Assembly: GCA_002746975.1 (NCBI GenBank)
Contig: NVXE01000008.1
Location: forward strand, 945-33,650
Direction: 5' to 3'
DNA length: 32,706 bases
From: Bacteroidota bacterium
GTDB lineage: Bacteria > Bacteroidota > Bacteroidia > Flavobacteriales_D > Sanyastnellaceae
Below, piece after piece: positions 2,938-20,643 of the stretch (the first letter of the stretch is position 1; each line of letters starts with the position of its first letter). The notes under the pieces were generated by a model. The model searched no databases and was not told where the DNA came from. It saw only the letters and a program-made list of their open reading frames with translations. A program made the translations under genes and the position numbers.

Positions 2938-3999
2938 ATGATAAGCGTTGTATCGACATATTGGGAGGTTGAACTCGAACGGGTGGCCGGGAATAGTTCT
3001 GGGGTCGTCATTGTCGCAGATAGTAAGTTACCGAGAAGCTACTCTAAATGCGTTATTGATATATGTCAGAAACTGACTAATGTGTCACTTATCGAGATAG
3101 AGGGAGGTGAGAAGTCTAAGACTCTAATTACCGTTAATAATATATACGACTTTCTTGATGTGTCAGGAACAGATAGAAAAAGCGTGTTGGTTTGTTTGGG
3201 TGGAGGGACTATAACTGATCTTGGAGGATATGTAGCTAGTACCTATAAAAGAGGTATCAGTTTGGTGTTGATCCCTACCACGGTATTAGGGATGGTTGAT
3301 GCTGCAATAGGTGGTAAAACTGGTGTTAACCGGTTAGTTAAAGGTAGTGGTGGTGTTATGAAAAATCAGATAGGCACGTTTTATCAATCTTCTCTGACAG
3401 TATTAGACCAAACCTGGCTTTCCTCACTCCCACCAGATGAAATAAGAAGTGGTTGGGCAGAGATGGCGAAACATGCTTTGCTCGTAGGTGGTGCACATCT
3501 AAACGAGTTTATGAAAGTTTCAAGTAATTTAGGAGGGATAGGGAAATTTCTTAAAGAGTCTGCAGAAATAAAAGAGAAGATTGTATCTCGAGATGAAAAG
3601 GAAAACGGAGAACGAGCGTCATTAAATTTAGGGCATACAATAGGTCACGCATTAGAAAGCTTGAGCTTAGATAATGAAAGTAATGAGTCGCACACTAAAC
3701 ATGGGGAAGCAGTCGCTTGGGGGCTAGTTTTTGCACTTGAGTCCTCAGTATTCAAACTAGGGTTCAATAGAGACCTCGCTTCTAAGCTTCAAGAGTGGAT
3801 CGTGACAGGTATTGAAAAACAAATTGAATTAAATAGTTCAGTAGAAGTTTGGTCTAAAATGTGCGGAGATAAGAAAAACGTGAACGGCAACGTTAGAGAT
3901 GTATTACTACGAGCTCCTGGAGACATCATCTGGGACTTCGAATGGAAGTGGGAGGAATTCACAATCTTATGGGAGCAATTCCGCGAGAAATACACCTGA
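2938..3999 (+). CDS. aroB: 3-dehydroquinate synthase
   Basis: Second enzyme of the shikimate pathway: it converts DAHP to 3-dehydroquinate using NAD and a divalent metal, in the cytoplasm. At 353 residues it has the usual length. The NAD-binding segment GGGTITDLGGYVAS lies at residues 88-101, followed by PTTVLGMVDAAIGGKTGVN (113-131). The expected metal ligands are Glu175 (in GWAEMAKH), His233 (in GHTIGH) and His255 (in KHGEAVA). The ATG at 2938 fits the family's N-terminus. A weak -7-like GAACTTTG lies at 2913-2920. lpxD follows 31 bases after the stop, on the same strand, so some co-transcription with the lipid A genes is likely. Confidence 0.95.
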   Translation: MISVVSTYWEVELERVAGNSSGVVIVADSKLPRSYSKCVIDICQKLTNVSLIEIEGGEKSKTLITVNNIYDFLDVSGTDRKSVLVCLGGGTITDLGGYVASTYKRGISLVLIPTTVLGMVDAAIGGKTGVNRLVKGSGGVMKNQIGTFYQSSLTVLDQTWLSSLPPDEIRSGWAEMAKHALLVGGAHLNEFMKVSSNLGGIGKFLKESAEIKEKIVSRDEKENGERASLNLGHTIGHALESLSLDNESNESHTKHGEAVAWGLVFALESSVFKLGFNRDLASKLQEWIVTGIEKQIELNSSVEVWSKMCGDKKNVNGNVRDVLLRAPGDIIWDFEWKWEEFTILWEQFREKYT

Positions 4000-4015
4000 A
4001 CCGTCTACTAATAAA

Positions 4016-4023
4016 TATCTTTG
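4016..4023 (+). promoter_or_regulatory. Candidate internal promoter for lpxD
   Basis: TATCTTTG matches TAnnTTTG and ends 7 bases before the lpxD ATG at 4031, so a transcript from it would have almost no leader. No clear TTTG is seen at the -33 position. It lies in the short gap after aroB. Confidence 0.45.
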
Positions 4024-4030
4024 CAGTCAA

Positions 4031-5077
4031 ATGGAACAAACCGCAGCTGAGTTAGCAGTACTTCTAGAAGGGTCTGTTTCTGGAAATCCAGAAGCAAGAG
4101 TCCGTAAACTAGGGAAGATAGAATCCGCCGGTGCGGGGTCAGTAACTTTCTTAGCTAACATGGAATATGAGAAGTTCGTTTATACCTGCGGAGCAACAGT
4201 AGTGGTAGTGGGACGTGATTTCAAACCTAAACAACCTCTTCCAATCGGCATGACGTTAGTAGTCGTTGAAGATCCATACCGATCTTTCGCTAGACTACTG
4301 GAATCATACGATAATATTCTGAAACGAGACGAAGGTATTCATTCATCTGCAACTGTGCACCCCGACGCTATTATAGGAAAGGGTTGCGCCATAGGGCCTG
4401 GAGTTGTAATAGATAAGGGCGCGGTAATTGGAGATAGGACTGAACTACGTGCACACGTATATATAGGTAGGGACGTGACGATAGGTTGTGACTCGATGCT
4501 TTTCTCCGGGGTTAGAATTCTAGACAGATGTGGAGTAGGTAACCGTTGTACTATTCAGGGTGGAACTGTAGTCGGATCTGATGGCTTCGGGTTTGCTCCT
4601 AAAGACGATGGTTCATACGCAAAAGTCCCTCAGACTGGAAACGTAATTATTGAGGATGATTGTGATTTAGGAGCCCTTTGTGCTCTAGATAGGGCGACAC
4701 TTGGTTCTACCATCATTCGCAGTGGGTGCAAGTTAGACAACCTCATTCAGGTGGCACATAATGTAGTTATAGGAGAGAAAACCGTTATTGCAGCCCAAAC
4801 AGGCATTGCTGGATCTACTACTATAGGCTCTCAATGTATGATAGGTGGGCAAGTGGGGATAGGCGGGCACTTGAAAATTGCGAATGGATCTAGAATTGCC
4901 GCTAAGTCAGGAGTATCTGCAAGCCTGCTTACACCAAATGGTACTTACCAAGGAAACCCGGCAATGCCTATAAAAGCATTCCAAAAATTCCAAATTGCTC
5001 TTCGTAGGCTTGTTAGATTTGAGAAAAACAATAGTGGGGAAAGAAATCAAAGAGACCAAGAAACTCAAAATATATGA
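4031..5077 (+). CDS. lpxD: UDP-3-O-(3-hydroxyacyl)glucosamine N-acyltransferase
   Basis: Third step of lipid A synthesis: it adds a 3-hydroxyacyl chain from acyl-ACP to the amino group of UDP-3-O-acyl-glucosamine. The protein is 348 residues, normal for the family. The N-terminal uridine-binding domain includes VTFLANMEYEKF (38-49). A left-handed beta-helix of hexapeptide repeats fills about residues 105-310. The catalytic His is His243 in QVAHNV. The frame is open further back to 3899, but that extension lies inside aroB and has no family counterpart. I therefore start at 4031, where homologues begin and which follows a -7 box. The stop overlaps the lpxC/fabZ start (ATGA). Confidence 0.93.
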   Translation: MEQTAAELAVLLEGSVSGNPEARVRKLGKIESAGAGSVTFLANMEYEKFVYTCGATVVVVGRDFKPKQPLPIGMTLVVVEDPYRSFARLLESYDNILKRDEGIHSSATVHPDAIIGKGCAIGPGVVIDKGAVIGDRTELRAHVYIGRDVTIGCDSMLFSGVRILDRCGVGNRCTIQGGTVVGSDGFGFAPKDDGSYAKVPQTGNVIIEDDCDLGALCALDRATLGSTIIRSGCKLDNLIQVAHNVVIGEKTVIAAQTGIAGSTTIGSQCMIGGQVGIGGHLKIANGSRIAAKSGVSASLLTPNGTYQGNPAMPIKAFQKFQIALRRLVRFEKNNSGERNQRDQETQNI

Positions 5078-6507
5078 TTCAATCTAATAAGCAACACACA
5101 CTTAAAGATATCGCTGTCTTTAAAGGAGTGGGATTGCATACTGGTGAAATGTGCACTTTAACAGTATTGCCTGCTGAAGTTAACCACGGATATAAATTCC
5201 AAAGAACTGATATCGATGGAGAGAATATCATTGACGCATGCTCTAAAAACGTAATATCTACTTTAAGAAGTACGACACTTGGAAAAGGTAAGGTCGAGGT
5301 TCATACTACTGAGCATATTCTCGCTGCGTTATACGCTTCTGGTATAGATAACGCTTTGATACAGCTAAATGCAAGAGAAGTTCCTATCCTCGACGGTAGT
5401 GCTCAGTTGATTATTGAAAACTTTGAGAAGATAGGTACAGTAGAACAGGACGGAGATCGAAAATTTTATCGAGTAGTGAAGAACATTAGCTTTATAGACA
5501 AGGAAAGCGATGTTGAAATGCTAATAGTTCCAAATGAGGATGATAATAATGGGTTACGACTAACTGTTATGGTCGATTACAATAGCCCTGTTCTGGGCAC
5601 CCAACACGCGAGACTAGAATCGCTGTCAGAATTTGCAAAGGAAATAGCGCCCTGTAGAACTTTCGTATTTATGAAAGAGGTTAAGAAGTTAGCTGAGCAA
5701 GGGTTGATTAAAGGTGGAGATGTCGATAACGCTGTAGTTCTTGCGGAAAGACCTTATTCAAAGGACGAACTTCAATCGATTGCCAATTCTATGGGTAGGG
5801 ACGAACTTGGAGTGGTCGAAGATGAAGCTGGTGTTGTAAGCACATCAGCTCTTAGATTTCGAAACGAACCTGCTCGACACAAGCTACTGGACATCTTAGG
5901 AGACTTAGCATTAACTGGACGTTATCTTCAGGGACATATTCTTGCTGCTAGGCCTGGACATAAAGCTAATGTCGAATTTGCTAAGGCTATTAGTAAGAAA
6001 ATTAGTGATTTTGAAAGCAAACCCAATCTAAGAACTGATAGAGAGCCCTTGCTCGACATTAATGCTATTTCAAGACTTCTACCGCATCGTTACCCCTTCT
6101 TGCTTGTAGATAGCATCCTAGAGATGAACAAAAATAGTATTATAGGAGTTAAGAACGTATCTATGAATGAACCGTTCTTTCAAGGTCACTTCCCTGACAA
6201 TCCAGTAATGCCAGGAGTTCTACAGGTTGAAGCCATGGCACAAGTAGGAGGAGTATTTGCTCTTTCAAGTGTAGACGAACCTGAATTTTGGTCTACATAC
6301 TTTATGAAAATAGACGATGTCAGATTCAAACAAAAAGTCCTACCTGGAGATAGCATAGTTTTCCACCTAGAATTAATATCACCTATTAGAAGAGGATTAG
6401 TGCACATGCAAGGAAAGGGATATGTCAGAGGAAAGCTTGTTTCACAAGCCATATTACTTGCACAAGTAATAAAAGACAGAGTACCTTCAGAACTTAAAGA
6501 GGATTAG
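5074..6507 (+). CDS. lpxC/fabZ: Bifunctional UDP-3-O-acyl-GlcNAc deacetylase / 3-hydroxyacyl-ACP dehydratase
   Basis: A 477-residue fusion typical of Bacteroidota. The N-terminal part (about 1-310) is LpxC, the zinc deacetylase that commits to lipid A. The expected active-site residues are present: Glu80-His81 (TTEH), His269 and Asp273 (RHKLLD) and His296 (PGH). The C-terminal part (about 325-470) is FabZ, which dehydrates 3-hydroxyacyl-ACP in fatty acid elongation. It has LLPHRYPFLLVD (335-346) and the catalytic His372 and Glu386 in GHFPDNPVMPGVLQVEAMAQ. One polypeptide thus holds two enzymes that compete for 3-hydroxyacyl-ACP flux. It overlaps lpxD by four bases and lpxA starts seven bases on, so translational coupling is likely. 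Confidence 0.97.
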   Translation: MIQSNKQHTLKDIAVFKGVGLHTGEMCTLTVLPAEVNHGYKFQRTDIDGENIIDACSKNVISTLRSTTLGKGKVEVHTTEHILAALYASGIDNALIQLNAREVPILDGSAQLIIENFEKIGTVEQDGDRKFYRVVKNISFIDKESDVEMLIVPNEDDNNGLRLTVMVDYNSPVLGTQHARLESLSEFAKEIAPCRTFVFMKEVKKLAEQGLIKGGDVDNAVVLAERPYSKDELQSIANSMGRDELGVVEDEAGVVSTSALRFRNEPARHKLLDILGDLALTGRYLQGHILAARPGHKANVEFAKAISKKISDFESKPNLRTDREPLLDINAISRLLPHRYPFLLVDSILEMNKNSIIGVKNVSMNEPFFQGHFPDNPVMPGVLQVEAMAQVGGVFALSSVDEPEFWSTYFMKIDDVRFKQKVLPGDSIVFHLELISPIRRGLVHMQGKGYVRGKLVSQAILLAQVIKDRVPSELKED

Positions 6508-18253: not shown

Positions 18254-19252
18254 TTAATTTGTTGGCCAAACCACCACAAAGGTAGCACCCCCACCAGGAG
18301 TCGATTTAATTGAAATTTCTGCATCATGCATTCTCACTATCTTATAAACTAAATGAAGTCCTAATCCAGTACCCTCAACTTCTTTATCTCTAGCTAATCT
18401 ATAAAAAGCTTCGAAAACCATTTCTCTTTCCTCTGGTTCAATGCCAGGTCCATGATCTATTATCGAGAGAGTTGTTGCTTTCGAACTAATATCTAAAACC
18501 ACCTCGACAACTGATTCTTTCGAATTATATTTAATTGCATTTTCTAAAAGGTTTGTTAGACAGAGTTTCCACATCTCCTCATCACCTAACAACAACTTGT
18601 CTTTATCACCTATCACCTCTACATTAATTGATGCATTAGGGTTAAGGTGTTTAAATAAAAGAACTTCCTCCTCAATAAATTCTGCTATATTGAACGGATA
18701 TCTAACTAATGCATCAGGAAGGTTCAGTCTAGTAGCTTGCAAAATATCCTCAACTCGTCTTTCTAAACGAAGAGTCCCAGATTTAGCTACATCAAGCATC
18801 TCCTCCCGTTCTTCTCCCTCGAGCTTTAATCGTTTAATGGTATCTATGGCAAGCCTTATTGCAGCTATTGGGGTTTTTAATTCATGAGTTACAGCAAGAA
18901 TGAAATTTCGTTCTCTTGCTAACCGGTAATTATCTGCACGTATAACACGCCACATCCAGTTTATTCCAAAAATAAAAAGCAACGCGAAAATGGTGCCTTC
19001 TCCTGCCACCATTAATATTGTTTTCTCCCAATCGTTTACTGCTTGAAGGATTTGTTCTGAGGAAGCGCTCTCCACAGATTTGGCCTCCAAAAGACTTGTA
19101 GCAGAACTGATAAGCAAATTAGCCCACCAAGCTAATTGTAGGAAAACATAAGTTGATAAAACAAAAAAAAGGGCACGCGCTCTGCGTCCCCTTTTAATTT
19201 TAAATTCCTTTTTATACAAGTTACTTTCTTGAGCCGTTTTCTTTACCGCCAT
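18254..19252 (-). CDS. Membrane-bound sensor histidine kinase
   Basis: A 332-residue kinase. Two membrane segments (about 27-50 and 79-102) enclose a periplasmic loop of only about 30 residues, too small for a usual sensor domain. The dimerisation helix has the phosphorylated His123 in AVTHELKTPIAAIRL. The ATPase domain has an N-box NLLENAIKYNSK, G1 DHGPGIEP and G2 GTGLGLHLVYKIV. No receiver domain and no response-regulator gene adjoin it, so its partner is unknown. The ATG at 19252 lies 32 bases inside the end of the preceding frame; an in-frame TTG at 19219 is an alternative start. It is co-directional with gpmI, two bases apart. Confidence 0.9.
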   Translation of the reverse strand: MAVKKTAQESNLYKKEFKIKRGRRARALFFVLSTYVFLQLAWWANLLISSATSLLEAKSVESASSEQILQAVNDWEKTILMVAGEGTIFALLFIFGINWMWRVIRADNYRLARERNFILAVTHELKTPIAAIRLAIDTIKRLKLEGEEREEMLDVAKSGTLRLERRVEDILQATRLNLPDALVRYPFNIAEFIEEEVLLFKHLNPNASINVEVIGDKDKLLLGDEEMWKLCLTNLLENAIKYNSKESVVEVVLDISSKATTLSIIDHGPGIEPEEREMVFEAFYRLARDKEVEGTGLGLHLVYKIVRMHDAEISIKSTPGGGATFVVVWPTN

Positions 19253-19691
19253 TCTTGTTGTGCGTATTCTTGTCTAACCAAGGAGATGCTGGACTTAATT
19301 TAGAAACTTTTTTAGATATTAAAAAATGCTGAACTGTTCCGCTTCTTTCAAGTGTAGTCCAAACTGCATCGACATACCATCCGTTTGACGACAGTACGTT
19401 AAGTGCCTGACCTAAAGAAGCATACGCGACATTAGATATCTCGTATGCTGTAGAAATCGCCTTTTTATCAGCTCCGATTCTATTTAAAATTGGATCAAAG
19501 CTAATCTTAACTACCGACTTACCATTTAATTCAAAAGCCGTCATTTCACCGTAAATTTTGAAATCTTCGCTTGTAATAACAGAGCTCTCAGCCTTTCCTT
19601 TGGTATTATTCTCAGACTTAGAAATTTGGGCTTGAACTTGAGAAGACATCAACATAGTAACAGCAGCAAACACAATAGTAAATCGTTTCAT
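19221..19691 (-). CDS. Predicted secreted small protein, internal start within the methyltransferase frame
   Basis: Starting at the internal ATG at 19691 gives 156 residues. These begin with a clean signal peptide: KR, then a hydrophobic run, then SSQVQA before Gln. The mature part of about 135 residues has an alpha/beta look. ALNVLSSNGWYVDAV followed by HFLISKKV recalls small GW-type domains of the DUF4177 kind; this is only a resemblance. A signal peptide makes little sense inside a cytoplasmic enzyme, so a separate gene started here is likely. The bases before the ATG, AAATTTAATAAA, are A/T-rich as in Bacteroidota initiation regions. They hold TAATAA in another frame. The C-terminus overlaps the kinase start by 32 bases. 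Confidence 0.6.
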   Translation of the reverse strand: MKRFTIVFAAVTMLMSSQVQAQISKSENNTKGKAESSVITSEDFKIYGEMTAFELNGKSVVKISFDPILNRIGADKKAISTAYEISNVAYASLGQALNVLSSNGWYVDAVWTTLERSGTVQHFLISKKVSKLSPASPWLDKNTHNKNGGKENGSRK

Positions 19692-20501
19692 TTTATTAAA
19701 TTTTGAGAGCGGAATATACGACTTTCTCAGTTTAAGATGCTGTTCAAAATCCTCAACTCTGTTAAAAAGCCACCCTTTTCCTCTCCATTTCATAGTTACA
19801 TTCCAATGGGCATCTTCTAAGAGCTCTATCCATGCAGCTTTCATTCCTTCTGACCAATCAATATCATCGATAAGAATAGCTCCCCCTTTATTAAGCATAG
19901 TTTTTAAAATCTCTATATATTCAAGTGTTGCAAGTCCATCGTGGTGGCCATCAAGAAAAACAACATCCCAGCCTCCCTTGTCTTGATTGAGTAGCGTTTC
20001 AAATTTACCTGTTTTACATTTTATACTCTCTTCACATCCCAAAATCTTCCAATTTCTCCTTGCGTAACTTGAAGTATTACGACATCCTTCCCATGTTTCA
20101 ACTTCCCATCCAGAAGCAGCTAAATAAGCAGTTGTCAATCCTAGCGAGGTACCCATTTCTAATATTCTACAACTCGAACGTTTACTTTTCCAAAAAAGTA
20201 AAAGTCTCATCAAAGAAAATGCTACATTCTTCTGTTGTAACACAATGCTTACGATTTTTTTAATAGGTCTTAAATTATTTTTAAAGACTTTACTGCCTGC
20301 CCCAAAATCTTCCACCTCAATATAATCAGAGCTTCGCGACAAGGTTTGTCTTAAATGTTCAATCTTAGCTACCTGCTCAATAATTTCACTATTTACACCT
20401 ACTTCAACGTATTTACCTCCTCCCTCAAGGTGTCTCGCTATATCGAAAAGGAAGGGAGAATGTATCTGCCTCCAACTCTTATTTATTTCTTTTTGCTTCA
20501 A
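19221..20501 (-). CDS. SAM-dependent methyltransferase, in frame with a secreted protein (426-codon fused frame)
   Basis: Residues about 1-262 form a class I methyltransferase of a Bacteroidota type (IHSPFLFDI at 13-21). The SAM-binding LEMGTSLGLTTAYLAASGW is at 114-132, VFLDGHHDG at 181-189 and the acidic IDDIDW at 211-216. This part resembles a complete protein ending near FEQHLKLRK. The frame does not stop but continues through KFNK into Met271, which opens a signal peptide and a periplasmic-type domain. The only plausible start is TTG at 20501, since no ATG occurs before residue 98 and an in-frame TAA lies just upstream. Substrate unknown. The joint may be a real fusion, a lost stop, or a nested second gene (next entry). 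Confidence 0.75.
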   Translation of the reverse strand: MKQKEINKSWRQIHSPFLFDIARHLEGGGKYVEVGVNSEIIEQVAKIEHLRQTLSRSSDYIEVEDFGAGSKVFKNNLRPIKKIVSIVLQQKNVAFSLMRLLLFWKSKRSSCRILEMGTSLGLTTAYLAASGWEVETWEGCRNTSSYARRNWKILGCEESIKCKTGKFETLLNQDKGGWDVVFLDGHHDGLATLEYIEILKTMLNKGGAILIDDIDWSEGMKAAWIELLEDAHWNVTMKWRGKGWLFNRVEDFEQHLKLRKSYIPLSKFNKMKRFTIVFAAVTMLMSSQVQAQISKSENNTKGKAESSVITSEDFKIYGEMTAFELNGKSVVKISFDPILNRIGADKKAISTAYEISNVAYASLGQALNVLSSNGWYVDAVWTTLERSGTVQHFLISKKVSKLSPASPWLDKNTHNKNGGKENGSRK

Positions 20502-20502
20502 G

Positions 20503-20534
20503 TTGTCAAAGATGAGAACAACTTAGTATATTTG
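20503..20534 (+). promoter_or_regulatory. Promoter of tRNA-Val
   Basis: The -33 box TTG (20503-20505) is followed after 21 bases by the -7 box TATATTTG (20527-20534). The tRNA begins 11 bases later. The spacing and 13 bases around the -7 box are identical to the tRNA-Phe promoter. Confidence 0.65.
20507..20514 (-). promoter_or_regulatory. Candidate -7 box of the methyltransferase gene
   Basis: CATCTTTG on the minus strand differs from TAnnTTTG in one position and ends five bases before the TTG start at 20501. It overlaps the promoter region of the divergent tRNA-Val. Confidence 0.3.
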
Positions 20535-20545
20535 CACCCCGTTTA

Positions 20546-20620
20546 GGGCGATTAGCTCAGTTGGTTCAGAGCACCTCGTTTACACCGAGGGGGTCGGGGG
20601 TTCGAGCCCCTCATCGCCCA
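20546..20620 (+). tRNA. tRNA-Val (TAC)
   Basis: A 75-base cloverleaf. Acceptor GGGCGAT (20546-20552) pairs with ATCGCCC (20613-20619), and A20620 is the discriminator. The anticodon stem CCTCG/CGAGG encloses TTTACAC, which gives anticodon TAC. The T-arm contains GGGTTCGAGCCC. CCA is not encoded. Confidence 0.97.
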
Positions 20621-20643
20621 CTTAAAAAAAAGAAAGCGGAAAA

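Follow-up and report, generated by a model that had tools for sequence, protein, structure and literature searches.

The cytochrome b/c1 protein FbcH of Bradyrhizobium is a precursor that is cut by signal peptidase. According to their abstracts, the Rpn toxin–antitoxin pairs (PMC10327210) and Cas11b (PMC11899642) make use of an internal in-frame start, the short product being a part of the long protein. For operon genes that overlap or abut, termination–reinitiation is reported (PMC10666635).

Here, we analyze a locus in a window of 32,706 nucleotides (the whole stretch of DNA examined, from a Bacteroidota bacterium, genome G000), in which a methyltransferase part (MT) runs without a stop codon into a signal-peptide protein (SPP, 156 aa from Met271). 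As in Rpn and Cas11b, by those abstracts, one frame would give a long and a short product, the short one being the C-terminal part; in the present case this is predicted from the sequence. Unlike the products described there, SPP is predicted to be a separate, exported protein that would reside in another compartment, and the split form survives in relatives. Like FbcH, the locus has a single frame in which an internal signal peptide with an exported part comes after a first part; it differs in that MT-SPP carries a high-quality internal start and in that the cleavage is only predicted. The likeness to termination–reinitiation pairs lies in the same-strand neighbours and the short spacer, and the relative G108, in which a single base separates the stop from the ATG, has a pair of this type; in the six fused genomes, however, the stop codon that termination and restarting would need is absent.

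The joined frame and its two parts

The frame of 426 codons that an earlier note had described is exact: it lies on the minus strand, runs unbroken from 20501 to 19221 and ends with a stop (Table 1). Its start codon is TTG, not ATG, and seven more codons upstream of this TTG are open in frame. In the AlphaFold2 model of the whole frame, two well-folded parts, with block-mean pLDDT values of 70–97 (residues 1–260) and 76–92 (residues 311–400), are separated by residues 262–310, the linker and signal peptide, with pLDDT below 50.

Table 1. Positions of the features of the locus within the window
Feature	Position	Strand	Remarks
MT + SPP continuous frame	19221..20501	-	426 codons, stop codon 19221-19223; same frame in G110, G105, G102, G113, G112
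MT, putative class I SAM-dependent, COMT-like O-methyltransferase part	19692..20501	-	270 codons, TTG start
Start context of internal ATG, inside MT tail	19692..19711	-	A at -3, -6, -12, -13; includes shifted TAA TAA
Internal ATG (Met271), inferred true SPP start	19689..19691	-	context score 8.19
SPP signal peptide (predicted)	19629..19691	-	21 codons, VQA then Q; sequence, crude scan and pN/pS
Folded SPP domain (predicted)	19281..19571	-	AlphaFold2, fusion residues ~311-407
Sensor histidine kinase gene (named by eye)	18254..19252	-	next gene downstream of SPP

The MT part matches PF13578 (Methyltransf_24) with 42.4 bits alone and 41.2 bits as part of the fusion, the Pfam gathering cut-off being 26.3. 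The best PDB matches of its fold in Foldseek are Rv0187 (6jcl, E 1.1e-10) and SafC, and most of the 50 PDB matches listed are titled O- or catechol methyltransferases; we take Rv0187, SafC and TrmR, all among these matches, to be methyltransferases. By Pfam score and fold, MT is thus a putative class I SAM-dependent O-methyltransferase.

The N-terminus of SPP, MKRFTIVFAAVTMLMSSQVQA followed by Q, has the form of a canonical type I signal peptide, as judged by eye and by a crude scan, and 135 residues are left after it, in agreement with the earlier note, which had placed a signal peptide and a 135-residue domain at Met271 (ATG 19691..19689). Both the signal peptide and its cleavage-type motif are conserved. 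In the AlphaFold2 model, the domain adopts a beta-beta-alpha-alpha-beta-beta fold with a short additional helix, and residues N98, G104, W105, R116, and G118 are invariant in 25 aligned sequences, the window's own included. No Pfam family scored above its cut-off against SPP. For the SPP domain, DUF4177 (PF13783) did not reach the gathering cut-off: 6 of the 25 members match it at E values up to 5, the best being 0.018, and P0002 is not among the matches listed. The SPP fold has weak Foldseek matches to KCTD proteins (best E 1.5e-4, TM 0.40), from which no function is taken.

The junction in related genomes

Both parts occur in 12 genomes of the genus, a count that includes G106 and G107, which have MT remnants only. 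The junction is stop-less in six of them (G000, G102, G105, G110, G112, and G113) and split in the other six. The distance from the MT start to the SPP ATG is 810 nt in all six fused genomes, and the tail before the ATG reads SYI[PS]LSKFN[KN]M; in the five fused genomes other than G000, each of the two parts is 58–68% identical to that of the window. The ATG is immediately preceded by AAT AAA in G000, by the synonymous AAC AAG in G110, G105, and G113, and by AAC AAT in G102 and G112. Among the split genomes, the SPP ATG of G101, G103, and G111 is preceded by a single TAG plus 12 nt, with the two parts in phase (825 nt), while G106 and G107 have several stops between the MT remnant and SPP, also in phase (399 nt). 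In G108, the sister of G000, the MT stop TAA lies one base before the SPP ATG and the parts are out of phase (811 nt), the two genomes being set apart by an indel of one base where the sequence is A/T-rich. One genus thus contains junctions with several stops, with one stop, with the genes one base apart, and with no stop, and 11 of the 12 genomes are in phase. As for the remaining genomes, in G109 SPP lies at a contig edge and its MT is missing, and in G104 both parts are missing. The two adjacent TAA codons in a shifted frame, to which the earlier note had drawn attention, lie at 19698..19693, just before the internal ATG; the second of them (-4 to -2) occupies the place of the real MT stop of G108, which makes the clue meaningful.

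At E 0.001 or better, MT matches were obtained in 110 of the 114 family genomes, a number that takes in weak matches to other methyltransferases as well as the G106/G107 remnants. SPP is matched in 35 of these 114 genomes by single-sequence search and in 53 of 399 genomes of the order by profile search. Only six of these 53, namely the fused six, have a frame longer than 430 aa, the others having at most 258 aa. G079, listed with an SPP frame of 477 aa, was considered as a further fusion and turned out on rereading to contain an SPP of 187 aa and a stopped MT. A scan of the genome contigs for further cases returned four loci only, all already in the set (G112, G108, G077, and G082).

MT is followed by SPP on the same strand in 41 of the 49 SPP matches of the family (five matches outside the family are left out of this count); the others are on opposite strands nearby (four), far away or on another contig (three), or without an MT listed (one). 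The gap between the matched parts, measured between matches of which the SPP profile match begins inside SPP, goes from 750 nt down to 13, with the fused six at the short end. The MT-then-SPP order is thus conserved in the family, whose members range between widely spaced gene pairs and a single common frame, the spacer being hundreds of nucleotides long in some and absent in others. In the g19 genomes shown and in clade B (see below), MT and SPP are two separate genes, and that relatives keep two genes supports the proposal of the earlier note that the genes were once separate and were joined by an indel or the loss of a stop.

The tree comprises clade A (G000 and G108), clade B (G101, G103, G109, and G111), and clade C (the five other fused genomes), with G106 and G107 chosen as the outgroup. 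The best tree joins B with C (support 77/85), and the test does not reject a grouping of A with C (p-AU 0.32). The G000–G110 junction alignment has a score of 32 that none of 1000 shuffles matches, indicating that A and C share junction sequence. The fusion history takes at least two changes on the best tree (12 genomes, with G109 left out) and, by reasoning, also two when A and C are joined; a single origin followed by a later stop in G108 and two separate origins would require an equal number of changes. In the other-genus relatives shown, MT ends with ..QHxxLRY-like or ..LRLA-like sequences about 10 residues before Met271, and the tail KSYI[PS]LSKF is thus an extension common to clades A and C, including G108. 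We have also considered that a conserved non-coding leader was turned into this coding tail, an idea to which visual inspection lends some appeal. The fused forms align poorly to the G106/G107 spacers, the score being reached by 46 (G000–G106), 166 (G000–G107), 831 (G110–G106), and 838 (G110–G107) of 1000 shuffles, and the idea was rejected. The clade B sequences align well to the same spacers (0, 1, and 7 of 1000 shuffles in three comparisons).

Within clade C, the pN/pS of the signal peptide (first 22 SPP codons) is 0.03, compared with 0.16–0.26 for the MT parts and 0.22 for the mature SPP, which indicates strong purifying selection on the signal peptide. In the same clade, the last 14 MT codons have a pS of 0.096 versus 0.26–0.38 elsewhere (permutation p 0.037) and rank 16th among 257 MT windows, themselves included, with lower values slightly upstream and at the MT start; this is weak evidence for synonymous constraint at the junction. 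The counts come from pairs drawn from five closely related genomes and are not independent of one another. When G000 is compared with the five, pN/pS is lower at the junction (0.06) than in any of the other five segments. Because G108 keeps the tail as far as SKF before its stop, this conservation speaks for the MT tail and not for the fused product.

Start signals and readings of the junction

A position-weight score covering positions -20 to +12 was trained on 307 kb of the same genome, with 111 unambiguous ATG starts and 1691 internal in-frame ATGs, and separates the two with an AUC of 0.91 (starts by five-fold cross-validation). The ATG at 19691 scores above 92% of the 111 starts, and the only one of the 1691 internal ATGs to score 8.19 or more is this ATG itself, its frame being in the set. 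The TTG at 20501 has a mediocre value of 1.69 on this ATG-trained score, above 39% of the starts. For the SPP ATG of the other five fused genomes the scores are 7.09–8.44, and for four split genomes (G108, G103, G111, and G101) they are 5.30–7.98; as the contexts of the split genomes are also good, the context marks the ATG as a start, not the fused state as mattering.

For F. johnsoniae, Baez et al. 2019 (PMC6847099) give A at -3, -6, -12, and -13 as positive start determinants. All four positions are filled before the SPP ATG in all six fused genomes, and in the window's own genome this holds for 8 of the 111 starts and 13 of the 1691 internal ATGs (ATG 19691 included). The mRNA from -30 to +30 around this ATG is folded no more strongly than around starts: its MFE is -3.3, the means being -4.4 for starts and -9.6 for internal ATGs, and only 1.75% of 400 sampled internal ATGs are as open. 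In the crude scan of 208 long ORFs in the 307 kb, 14 internal signal-peptide-like Met residues were found, of which Met271 has by far the best context, the next best scoring 1.29. These calculations point to a start-grade initiation region at the internal ATG in every fused genome, in support of the earlier suggestion that it is a real second start. SPP occupies the 3' end of the long frame, in the same phase and with no stop between, and stop-loss joining and internal initiation, which had been put forward as separate readings, are not alternatives. The earlier note had also envisaged relatives that are fused and lack the internal start; five relatives are indeed fused, and all five keep the ATG and the signal peptide.

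A promoter of its own for SPP (TTG-N17..23-TAnnTTTG within 250 nt upstream) did not stand out against shuffled sequence (mononucleotide shuffles) in the 12 genomes of the genus that were scanned, the best being G106, for which 72 of 200 shuffles were as good. Outside the genus, G014, G074, and G076 come near (11, 13, and 18 of 200 shuffles, respectively), and G015, G072, and G078 do not.

Taken together, we estimate a probability of about 75% that two genes have come to share one frame through loss of stop and spacer and that SPP is started inside it, the joined MT-SPP being a tolerated by-product or a source of SPP. The stop codon(s) and spacer between MT and SPP would have been lost, which would have created the shared frame, and both parts would lie on one transcript. 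To produce the exported SPP, ribosomes would bind straight to the A-rich leader of ATG 19691, and this initiation would be independent of MT termination, as the fused six have no stop between MT and SPP. Ribosomes coming from TTG 20501 could not stop and would yield the 426-residue MT-SPP protein, whose MT domain would fold by itself in the cytoplasm. This joined protein would be either a by-product that is tolerated or, by means of the signal peptide inside it, an additional source of SPP; the former is probably the case, given the stop in the sister G108. That G106 and G107 keep SPP without the MT core suggests that SPP is independent of MT. On the other hand, a conserved signal peptide would be expected as well if the fusion is made and then cut.

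An alternative of the latter kind is that mainly MT-SPP is produced and that the signal peptide inside it is threaded into the membrane, with MT on the cytoplasmic side; as in FbcH, signal peptidase I would cut after VQA and free SPP, and MT would keep a hydrophobic tail. Such a precursor agrees with the stop-less frame and identical 810-nt spacing in six species, with the junction being the most conserved protein segment between G000 and the five, and with a conserved signal peptide and cleavage-type motif inside one frame. It is nevertheless unlikely, because the start-grade context of the ATG would be superfluous, because the sister G108 has a stop between the parts, and because its MT tail is kept to SKF as well, so that the conservation is no proof of a fused product; in an MT-first precursor, moreover, 270 residues precede the emerging signal. 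That the joined protein is functional in a mixed manner, as an emerging precursor with membrane-threaded MT from which signal peptidase frees SPP while the internal start adds more of it, we regard as doubtful.

The uninterrupted frame in six species would also be expected of a true two-domain fusion, in which Met271 is a mere residue and the hydrophobic stretch a type II anchor holding MT in the cytoplasm and the other domain in the periplasm. This is quite improbable in view of the cleavable-type signal peptide with its VQA end (by eye), the start context, the split state of 6 of the 12 genus genomes, and the presence of SPP without a full MT in G106 and G107. An error in sequencing or assembly that removed a stop or a base, as the earlier note had feared, would fit the one-base indel between G108 and G000, but it is hardly credible, since the frame is open in five further genomes and the codon changes at the junction keep it so; with six genomes sharing the open frame, such an error is refuted for the group as a whole.

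As judged from the sequences, the junction of the preferred two-gene reading is real and conserved in a small group of species, and known processes (spacer loss, stop loss, and internal start) appear to suffice for it; it is a tidy evolutionary oddity of several marine bacteria, not a new kind of system. It offers a natural test of whether ribosomes without Shine–Dalgarno pairing can start inside a frame that others are translating, and of how the cell handles a cytoplasmic enzyme that has a signal peptide behind it. Gene finders could annotate such a frame as a single odd fusion, with the exported protein being lost. If the joined protein were functional, one frame would determine in what ratio two proteins are made and in which of two compartments each is placed, and the interest would be higher if it were a working precursor.

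Neighbouring genes

Upstream of MT (window 20502-20621), a plus-strand tRNA-Val begins 44 nt from the MT start in divergent orientation, and the gap contains a TATATTTG box on the tRNA strand, which is presumably promoter-like. In the region upstream of SPP in G106 (L091) and G107 (L092), the MT remnants lack the SAM-binding core and retain the first ~50 residues (tblastn) and the last ~38 (by eye); in each of the two species the frame is intact and about 117 codons long.

A histidine kinase orthologue follows SPP in 10 of the 12 genus regions, the exceptions being G106 and G107, for which no histidine kinase match was obtained in the 8.5–9.3 kb fetched around SPP, with SPP and gpmI present. 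In the window, the ATG of this gene overlaps the SPP end by 32 nt (19221-19252) and has a poor context score of -1.46. By eye, an ATG stands behind the SPP stop in the clade C fused relatives, at the place of an ATT in G000, and the G108 histidine kinase aligns from the upstream start.

Elsewhere in the window, an LpxD-like frame (3899-5077, named by eye) has a listed start that gives an overlap of 101 nt with the gene before it, and the true start may be an ATG further inside. At 5074-6507, a single frame contains an LpxC-like part and, after it, a FabZ-like part (both named by eye), LpxC-FabZ fusions being common in Bacteroidota.
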